Shown here: positions 9,672 through 11,661 of the stretch, piece by piece | Position numbering within the stretch: position 1 is the first letter of the stretch | Layout of the letters: each line of letters opens with the position of its first letter | Source of the DNA: Hellea balneolensis DSM 19091 | Lineage (GTDB): Bacteria; Pseudomonadota; Alphaproteobacteria; Caulobacterales; Maricaulaceae | NCBI RefSeq assembly: GCF_000428525.1 | Contig: NZ_AUAC01000002.1 | Span: 124,001 to 188,000, forward strand | Length of the DNA stretch: 64,000 nt | Reading direction: 5' to 3' | Notes under the pieces: generated by a model | What the model was told of the DNA's origin: nothing | Databases searched by the model: none | Seen by the model: the letters and a program-made list of their open reading frames with translations, nothing else | Position numbers and translations under genes: made by a program

Positions 9672-10685
9672 ATGCGGCCAGACAACAAAGCTTTTAAAAT
9701 TTGCTCTGTAGTAATCAAAGTCGGTGGACTTGGATATGTCTGCATCCTTGGCTTAGTACTCATATCCAATTTTTCTGTCTTTAGCCCAAACTGGCCTTTT
9801 GGGCTGTTTGCCAGTTTTTCCTCTTTTTTAATCGTCATGCTGCCCTTTGTTATTGGATCTCTCTTCATGGTGTGGCGAAGAGTTGTACCTCTCGTGGCTA
9901 TTTTTGCTATTGGCGCCCTCTATCCATTTTTTACATTCGACAAGATGGTGAAGCCTTCTGTCCAAGACTGTACGACTGTTGACTGCGTAACCATTGTGGC
10001 TGCCAATCTCCGTCACAATAAAAATGCACTAATACGATTGGCTAGAACGGAAGCCAAAGATGCTGACATTTTGATTATCACCGAATTTCCCTACGCAGCT
10101 ACATCGGAACAATTGTTGTCATTGTTTCCTATGGATGGTGATGCACAAATTGGCCTCGTTACAGATGTAAATTTACAGCTCGGTAGCCGTATCGCAGTAA
10201 TATCAAGAAAACCATTAGATGATATCCAGCTACAAATAGAGAGTTTCCCAACCTCCGGTGTACGGCCCCGCGGCATTCTGAAATTTGATTACACAACAAC
10301 GAAGGGTAACGCAGTAAAATTTGCGGCTGTACACCCGCCTCCGCCAAAAGGCAGTGAAGAAACAACGGCTCGCGATGCTTATCTCAAAGCAGCAGGGCAA
10401 ACTTTCGATACAAAGGAAAATTTCGTTATGATTGGTGACTTCAACTTAACCCCTTGGGAACCGGGGTTTGAGACATTGCCCGGAAAACGCGCTGGTGATC
10501 CACGTTGGAGACGAACATGGAACGCACGTAATTTTATTGAGCGCTTATCTATCGATCATGCTCTTATTGGTGATGAAATAGGTCTTGTTGAAACAGGTGT
10601 TCTGCAGGATGTTGGTTCAGACCACTTTCCGATTCACCTCGTTATTTACGCTGAAGCCGATAAGGGACAAACTAATTCAAAATAG
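9672..10685 (+). CDS. Membrane-anchored endonuclease/exonuclease/phosphatase family protein
   Basis: A 337-residue protein. The first ~100 residues hold three hydrophobic segments (about 12-33, 39-60, 66-85). An EEP-superfamily domain follows, with VAANLRHN, IITEFP (catalytic Glu), IGDFNLTPWEP (Asp-Phe-Asn) and a terminal SDHFPI (Asp-His). All main metal and catalytic positions are present, so it is probably active as a phosphodiesterase or nuclease on the periplasmic or cytoplasmic face. The substrate cannot be read from the sequence. A GGGTGGG run precedes the ATG. Confidence 0.82.
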   Translation: MRPDNKAFKICSVVIKVGGLGYVCILGLVLISNFSVFSPNWPFGLFASFSSFLIVMLPFVIGSLFMVWRRVVPLVAIFAIGALYPFFTFDKMVKPSVQDCTTVDCVTIVAANLRHNKNALIRLARTEAKDADILIITEFPYAATSEQLLSLFPMDGDAQIGLVTDVNLQLGSRIAVISRKPLDDIQLQIESFPTSGVRPRGILKFDYTTTKGNAVKFAAVHPPPPKGSEETTARDAYLKAAGQTFDTKENFVMIGDFNLTPWEPGFETLPGKRAGDPRWRRTWNARNFIERLSIDHALIGDEIGLVETGVLQDVGSDHFPIHLVIYAEADKGQTNSK

Positions 10686-10704
10686 TACATGATTTAAGCG
10701 CCAT

Positions 10705-10745
10705 AAAATCATCCCAAATAACCCGCTAAATTAACTGATGATTTT
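10705..10745 (+). terminator. AT-rich inverted repeat after the EEP gene
   Basis: AAAATCATC (10705-10713) and GATGATTTT (10737-10745) are exact complements with a 23-base spacer, 20 bases after the EEP stop codon. It could end transcription of that gene weakly, but the stem is AT-rich and the loop long. Confidence 0.3.
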
Positions 10746-10901
10746 GAGGAGTAATAAACTTCAATCCTTGTCTAAATTTACTAAAATCATAAGCTTGACT
10801 GACTTTAAAAATACTCAATCCTCGTGTCCGTCAAGCTATGCTAAACTGCGTTCGTTCCTCCTTTTTGGACAGGCAATCGCGTAAGTTTGTTGGTAGGGGG
10901 A

Positions 10902-11048
10902 CGGTGAGGCTCAGCGCCGCGAAATACGCGCGCGGAAAGCTGGCCTCGGCGTAAGTCACTTGAGACGCCGCCGATAAAATCACCGCCGCAGGGTTAGTGC
11001 CTTGTGTTTATTATCTTAAGAAGGTGCCTCAAGGCATCGACCCTGCGG
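10902..11048. ncRNA. Candidate structured RNA, unassigned
   Basis: The 451 bases between the convergent EEP and cinA genes (10686-11136) hold no plausible gene, but the middle is GC-rich and highly foldable. Hairpin A: GAGGC 10906-10910 with GCCTC 10943-10947, AGC 10913-10915 with GCT 10939-10941, and CCGCG 10917-10921 with CGCGG 10931-10935. Hairpin B: CGGCGT 10947-10952 with ACGCCG 10965-10970. Both are enclosed by CGGT 10902-10905 with ACCG 10982-10985. Hairpin C: CCGCAGGGT 10986-10994 with ACCCTGCGG 11040-11048, plus GTGCCTTG 10997-11004 with CAAGGCAT 11030-11037. It does not show the hallmarks of RNase P RNA, tmRNA, SRP RNA or a riboswitch known to me. The strand is undecided; a weak TATGCT -10-like element lies at 10837-10842 on the plus strand. 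Confidence 0.5.
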
Positions 11049-11136
11049 ACGTCCATTTAATTGGGCGCGAGGTAAATGTTGGCTTTCATTTAAAAAAGGC
11101 CGAGTCAAACCGCAGGATAGCTGTATCTATATGACC

Positions 11137-11661
11137 TTAAGATGCAGCCTTAACCAATGCTCTAAGCGCCTCATAACAGGTTACATCTCTGACTTTATTT
11201 CGTCCAATATCCCCAAAGCGGTGCAGCTTCGTTGTGACATCAATTTTGCCGTCAACTTTAACCGCCAGACCCATCCAGACTGTCCCAACGGGTTTGTCTC
11301 CGCTTCCCCCGCCGGGGCCAGCAATGCCCGTCACGGAGACTGCCATATCGACATTAAGCGCCTCAATCGCGCCCAAAGCCATCGCGCGGGCCACTTCGCG
11401 GCTTACTGCGCCATATTTACTAATCATGCCGGCGGGAACATTAAGGAGCTTGTTTTTGATCTTATTATCATAGGCAATGATACCGCCCTTAAACGGCTTA
11501 GAAGATCCCGCAATAGAGGTTATGGCTGCACCGATAAGACCGCCCGTGCAGCTCTCGGCGGTCGCAATTGTGATGTTCTTTGCGGACGTTGCATCAATAA
11601 GCGCTTGGGCTTGAGTAAATATATCTTTGAGCGATATTTTGGGATAGGTGCTTTGGGTCAT
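11137..11661 (-). CDS. cinA: CinA family protein (nicotinamide-nucleotide amidase domain)
   Basis: A 174-residue stand-alone C-terminal CinA domain, the PncC-type NMN deamidase of NAD salvage. Typical segments are TAESCTGGLIGAAIT (about 33-47) with the nucleophilic Ser, SREVARAMALGA, and SVTGIAGPGGGSGDKPVGTV (about 110-129). There is no N-terminal molybdopterin-binding-like domain, as in the short alphaproteobacterial versions. The ATG at 11661 overlaps the ispDF stop by ATGA, so it is translationally coupled to ispDF. Confidence 0.9.
   Translation of the reverse strand: MTQSTYPKISLKDIFTQAQALIDATSAKNITIATAESCTGGLIGAAITSIAGSSKPFKGGIIAYDNKIKNKLLNVPAGMISKYGAVSREVARAMALGAIEALNVDMAVSVTGIAGPGGGSGDKPVGTVWMGLAVKVDGKIDVTTKLHRFGDIGRNKVRDVTCYEALRALVKAAS

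Follow-up and report, generated by a model that had tools for sequence, protein, structure and literature searches.

The window analysed here is a stretch of 64,000 nucleotides from Hellea balneolensis DSM 19091. As the first-pass annotation of this DNA described, it contains a gap of 451 bases (positions 10686-11136) between two converging genes, a plus-strand ORF ending at 10685 and the minus-strand cinA ORF (11137-11661). A predicted RNA gene of about 275 nt lies in this gap on the plus strand, from 10854 to about 11128, with both ends inferred from conservation. The covariance-model match covers 134854-135055 of the contig, equivalent to 10854-11055 of the window, and homology between near-identical paralogues in the same genome extends from -12/-17 to +277/+283 relative to the equivalent of position 10854. 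Upstream on the same strand is a predicted promoter (10817-10847), in which a -35-like box, AATCCTCG (10817-10824), is separated by 16 nt from a -10-like box, CTAAACT (10841-10847).

The RNA begins with helix P1 (10856-10901, plus strand, like all features below), where TCCTCCT (10856-10862) pairs with AGGGGGA (10895-10901). A GGAC motif near the 5′ end (10867-10870) has its partner, GTCC (11051-11054), about 180 nt downstream; because GGAC sits within the P1 loop, this pairing forms a pseudoknot. Between the GGAC arm and the 3′ arm of P1 is a short hairpin, P2 (10873-10890), with a self-complementary loop core, CGCG (10878-10881), that is a candidate homodimer kissing loop. Helix P3 (10902-10985; CGGTGA/TCACCG) encloses the three-step hairpin P4 (10908-10945) and the CGGCGT hairpin P5 (10946-10974), and is followed by the long hairpin P6 (10986-11048; CCGCAGGGT...ACCCTGCGG). 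The 3′ domain (11055-11128) comprises a variable hairpin, a second hairpin (GGCTTTC...AAAAAAGGCC, about 11080-11102) and a conserved end, GCAGGATAGCTGTATCT. This domain is kept across Hellea copies of the RNA and differs from genus to genus.

Fold and covariation

The window copy alone folds to -112.7 kcal/mol, against a mean of -90.4 for dinucleotide shuffles (z = -4.36; none of 200 shuffles was as good), and energy folding of this single sequence yields P1, P3, P4, P5 and P6. RNAalifold recovered the helices from a MAFFT alignment of 14 copies, in four rows of which an inserted 5′ hairpin had been removed by hand so that P1 aligns, and it found the GGAC/GTCC pairing unprompted. Across copies, the long-range pairing is GGAC/GTCC in 101, GGGC/GCCC in four and a GU variant in a few more.

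Covariation in relatives had been proposed as a check on the RNA, and we assessed it in 30 copies aligned to the covariance model. Standard pairs occupied 95.5% of the cells, 33 of the 46 pairs had compensatory changes on both sides, and none of 500 shuffles scored as high on any measure, while sliding the partner arm by one to three columns reduced pairing to 36-42%; these figures lean towards the model, because the alignment was fitted to it. Seven of the nine pairs in the base helix of P6 changed on both sides, with 97.4% of cells paired, and GU pairs are tolerated in the helices. P1 is absent from the covariance model, so the evidence for it is independent. This helix, next to the RNA start, exists in 59 distinct versions among 70 anchored copies, and pairing is stronger between native arms than between swapped ones (mean 7.7 versus 5.6); the scripted parses of P1 and P2 behind such figures were imperfect and missed the anchors in a few copies.

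The first-pass annotation had proposed an unassigned structured RNA with four hairpins or helices, corresponding to P3, P4, P5 and P6. All four are present with compensatory changes, including double changes in P3, P4 and P5, and the RNA itself is borne out by covariation across several genera; its repeats, promoter, P1 and pseudoknot had been missed. A further suggestion, that CCTGCGG (11042-11048) could alternatively pair with CCGCAGG (11110-11116) to give two mutually exclusive folds, did not hold. This pairing is a coincidence of the window copy, and the second fold cannot form in sister copies because the P6 arm has changed with the 3′ element unchanged. For example, the copy at C1:1187826 has P6 arms CTGCGGGAG/CTCCCGCAG and still has CCGCAGGAG as its 3′ element. 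The many compensatory changes imply long-term selection on the RNA, and we regard the RNA class, its fold and its promoter as well supported.

Copies, promoters and genomic sites

The gene is not a single-copy RNA tied to its convergent gap: the Hellea genome has 24 dispersed copies, this one included, in all gene orientations. A DNA search of the genome identified 16 similar places, which, the window's own apart, are 70-93% identical, each with unrelated flanks. The count of 24 comes from a covariance model built from the Hellea copies and then widened to other genera, which found 54, 26, 41, 49, 9, 11 and 9 copies in seven relatives. Two Hellea contigs end within RNA copies (G000:C4:1-252 and C6:167270-167447) with an exact overlap of 105 bases. 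The repeat thus broke the assembly at two contig ends, and the number of copies given here could be slightly in error.

We next determined how widespread the RNA is. The covariance model matched 34 of 137 genomes, in six of the 19 genera, of one bacterial family, and none of 384 other genomes in a sample of the class. In a phylum sample of 398 other genomes, the sole match (G720) was a partial hairpin of 22 bits that we take to be chance. Because the filters were stricter in the large searches, these may have overlooked weak relatives outside the family. The named matches of an exact-motif search were all Hellea genomes, a genus that NCBI places in the Robiginitomaculaceae, Maricaulales. No similar sequence was found in plasmid or phage records, and viral contigs contained no exact match to the P2 motif. 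A search of largely open-access journal papers found no report of such a family in Hellea or the Hyphomonadaceae.

The promoter boxes recur with the RNA. The pattern AATCCTYG-N16/17-YTANNNT has nine matches in the 3.2-Mb genome (zero for the reversed control), eight of which are directly upstream of RNA copies; the ninth sits in an apparent protein-coding region and was dismissed as chance. Copies, including those in other genera, share a -35-like ATCC(C/T)(C/T) that lies some 17 nt from a TATA-like -10. From these patterns, each main-type copy is predicted to have its own promoter, of a class nearly private to the RNA family. The spacers between the boxes differ among copies whose RNAs are 98-100% identical, suggesting that the boxes are kept by selection and the promoters maintained separately. 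In one genome (G009, L073-L082), an extra 5′ hairpin (CATCGGGAAACTATCCTCGATG-like) separates the promoter from P1 and the boxes lie further upstream; as they precede the hairpin, the promoter follows the transcript start.

Other upstream features are specific to certain genomes. Many copies in G061 (L188-L207) have an inverted repeat, AACCTGTG-N8-CACAGGTT, around the -10 region (-25 to -1), with matching changes in some copies (AACCCGTG/CACGGGTT). The ATCCCC boxes of G121 (L208-L221), at about -57 and -35, are direct repeats about 22 bp apart, and Hellea has a second AATCCTTG about 50-57 bp upstream (about 10764-10771 in the window). The repeated boxes in G121 and Hellea suggest a shared activator. 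Two copies (L185 and L186) are without the usual -35 box. A divergent Hellea subtype (L020-L022; C5:162620, C3:176573 and C1:897612 of G000) has a different, TTGACA-like upstream region, a common unit of 565 nt and a longer 3′ domain; one of its copies is directly upstream of rpsA, and a copy in G199 (L226) also adjoins rpsA.

The copies lie between genes, in no consistent orientation relative to those genes. No neighbouring protein was common to the 15 loci compared in this genome or to 89 loci in eight genomes, and no transposase was found as a common neighbour. Inverted termini were not apparent in the aligned copies, nor was a common flank. Downstream of the RNA, two copies in G017 (L172 and L173) share a duplicated 814-bp segment (97%) that encodes a 161-aa protein, and in G141 (L106 and L111) another short repeat, GATGGCGAGTTGGA..AAAGGCGTG, recurs after several of the copies.

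In a phylogenetic tree, the copies group mostly by genome. In most near-identical pairs the shared sequence begins close to the start of the RNA and extends 240-400 nt from there. Together, these pairs and the clustering by genome suggest concerted evolution via gene conversion and duplication. Most sites are not shared between species. The cinA-flanking gap, whose comparison among relatives had also been proposed, contains a copy in one relative (G003), which also shares the site at C2:391541, and in no other relative tested. Some RNA sites are old, with turnover elsewhere. We found no precise empty sites, and the orthologous regions are rearranged.

The self-complementary loop and its interpretation

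The loop of P2 opens, above a short stem, with a tetranucleotide core. This core is a palindrome in 41 of the 44 distinct P2 versions, against 13.4 on average and at most 24 in 2000 column shuffles. Palindromes of six bases occur in 30 of the 44 (shuffle mean 4.8, maximum 13). Two exceptions are a copy with one inserted base (C6:22656) and a short degenerate copy (G017 L176); the third (L200), whose loop reads AGCGCT, was apparently misparsed. Eight core types were found (CGCG, ACGT, GATC, GTAC, GGCC, AGCT, GCGC and TATA), and G061 by itself has at least five. The type switches at least 34 times on a tree computed from the RNA with P1 and P2 left out, and some of these switches are probably exchanges of the 5′ domain between paralogues instead of independent substitutions. 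The stem of P2 pairs better with its own than with a swapped partner by a modest margin (mean 4.1 versus 3.3).

The sequence of the loop varies while its self-complementarity is kept, as expected of a site that has to pair with another copy of the same molecule; a site for a protein or substrate would usually be fixed in sequence. A loop covarying as a palindrome is the signature of a symmetric kissing loop, seen here in eight types, and an extensive covarying fold with long-range pairing, a trait of homo-oligomeric ornate RNAs, is also present. For the OLE and GOLLD RNAs, palindrome-switching loops (GGCC, GAUC and AGCU in OLE) supported symmetric kissing loops, and cryo-EM shows the contact (PMC12286853). 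The same argument applied here suggests, by analogy, that the RNA likely homodimerises through the P2 loop. A core of four nucleotides is by itself short for stable kissing, and OLE has further contacts besides its kissing loop.

Our preferred reading, which we consider probable, is that the gene in the gap belongs to a dispersed multigene family whose product is an ornate RNA, high in copy number, that forms homo-oligomers by way of its P2 loop. Each RNA would be transcribed from its own promoter, and molecules with the same core would pair by a symmetric kissing loop into homodimers or larger RNA assemblies that may be the working form of the RNA. Different palindromes in one genome would provide separate pairing specificities. 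More tentatively, and with somewhat less than even confidence, we propose that paralogues with different cores form separate homotypic assemblies, making up a per-genome repertoire and an RNA pairing code selected for self-complementarity. Past assembly, the RNA might serve as a scaffold, form a particle or capture a ligand or protein.

Several other readings were weighed against homo-oligomerisation. The structured RNA could itself be a selfish RNA-based or non-autonomous mobile unit whose fold serves mobility, like an ORF-less intron, an omega-RNA relic or a MITE-like repeat with machinery encoded elsewhere. The 9-54 dispersed copies with few orthologous sites between species would fit such an element, as would the presence of the cinA-side copy in a single tested relative and the near-identical copies whose homology often begins near the RNA start. 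Against this, promoters with differing spacers between conserved boxes seem to be maintained separately, the compensatory changes point to long-term selection on the RNA, and neither terminal inverted repeats, a common neighbour or transposase, a plasmid or phage match, nor an exact P2 motif in viral contigs was seen. We therefore think a mobile element unlikely. Still less probable is a DNA-level element, a recombination or protein-binding site in which the palindromes and inverted repeats work as DNA. Both can be such sites, and the copies are dispersed and intergenic, but a strand-specific promoter at a fixed place, the long-range GGAC/GTCC pairing and the acceptance of GU pairs in helices make this reading very hard to sustain.

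The palindromic loop could instead be bound, as RNA or as DNA, by a dimeric protein. In one version of this idea the copies form a family of small regulatory RNAs that target mRNAs or a protein, and the loop binds a dimeric RNA-binding protein and makes no RNA-RNA contact. Multicopy small RNA families are known and offer a precedent, and the shared promoter class suggests co-regulation. Yet the loop sequence is free to vary provided that it stays self-complementary, where a protein site would be expected to be fixed, and the size and pseudoknotted fold go beyond typical base-pairing small RNAs, so that we consider this improbable, more so than a mobile element though not as much as a DNA site.

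Comparison with known RNA classes

Rfam 15 includes OLE, GOLLD, ROOL, HEARO, tmRNA and SRP. The window had no Rfam match at the gathering score, in agreement with the earlier failure to place the RNA among RNase P RNA, tmRNA, 6S, SRP or a known riboswitch; the best sub-threshold match was a chance-level 19.9 bits to a microRNA model (gathering 100). The true RNase P RNA (RF00010) of this genome is elsewhere (C1:626220-626580, 292 bits), as is its only 6S-like match (RF00013; G000 C1:892264-892422), which at 40.9 bits is below the cut-off of 46.4, and a tRNA/tmRNA search of the window found none. An IscB/TnpB omega-RNA would have an RNA-guided nuclease ORF beside it, and comparing the neighbours of the copies with each other revealed no protein common to them.

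Qrr and LhrC are multicopy small RNAs of about 100 nt that have few copies and pair with mRNAs. The RNA described here resembles them in having several co-regulated paralogous genes per genome, and differs in its tens of copies and its large, pseudoknotted structure. HEARO and the omega-RNAs of IscB and TnpB elements are, likewise, structured RNAs dispersed in many copies; unlike them, our family has no protein common to the examined flanks, its own promoter in most copies and no Rfam match. REP and MITE sequences are also dispersed, intergenic repeats bearing hairpins, and they differ from the present RNA, which has a covarying fold, is predicted to be promoter-driven, has no apparent terminal inverted repeats in the aligned copies and is much larger than REPs.

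The RNA would represent a previously undescribed noncoding class whose gene number is unusually high among large structured RNAs of bacteria. With its dozens of copies and at least eight palindromes that can replace one another, the family makes the question of homo-oligomerisation in ornate RNAs directly testable and, if the reading is true, orthogonal self-pairing loops would be useful parts for RNA nanotechnology. Like OLE, GOLLD and ROOL, it is a long noncoding RNA with an intricate fold and a largely unknown function, and its loop switches among palindromes as that of OLE does (PMC12286853). Unlike these three, it is smaller (about 275-450 nt), has no Rfam match and, among the genomes searched, is confined to a single family of Alphaproteobacteria, where it occurs in 9-54 dispersed copies per genome (eight genomes) with at least eight palindrome types, several of them within one genome. 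Its kinship to the known classes is thus by mechanism, as a putative ornate, self-assembling RNA, and not by family membership.
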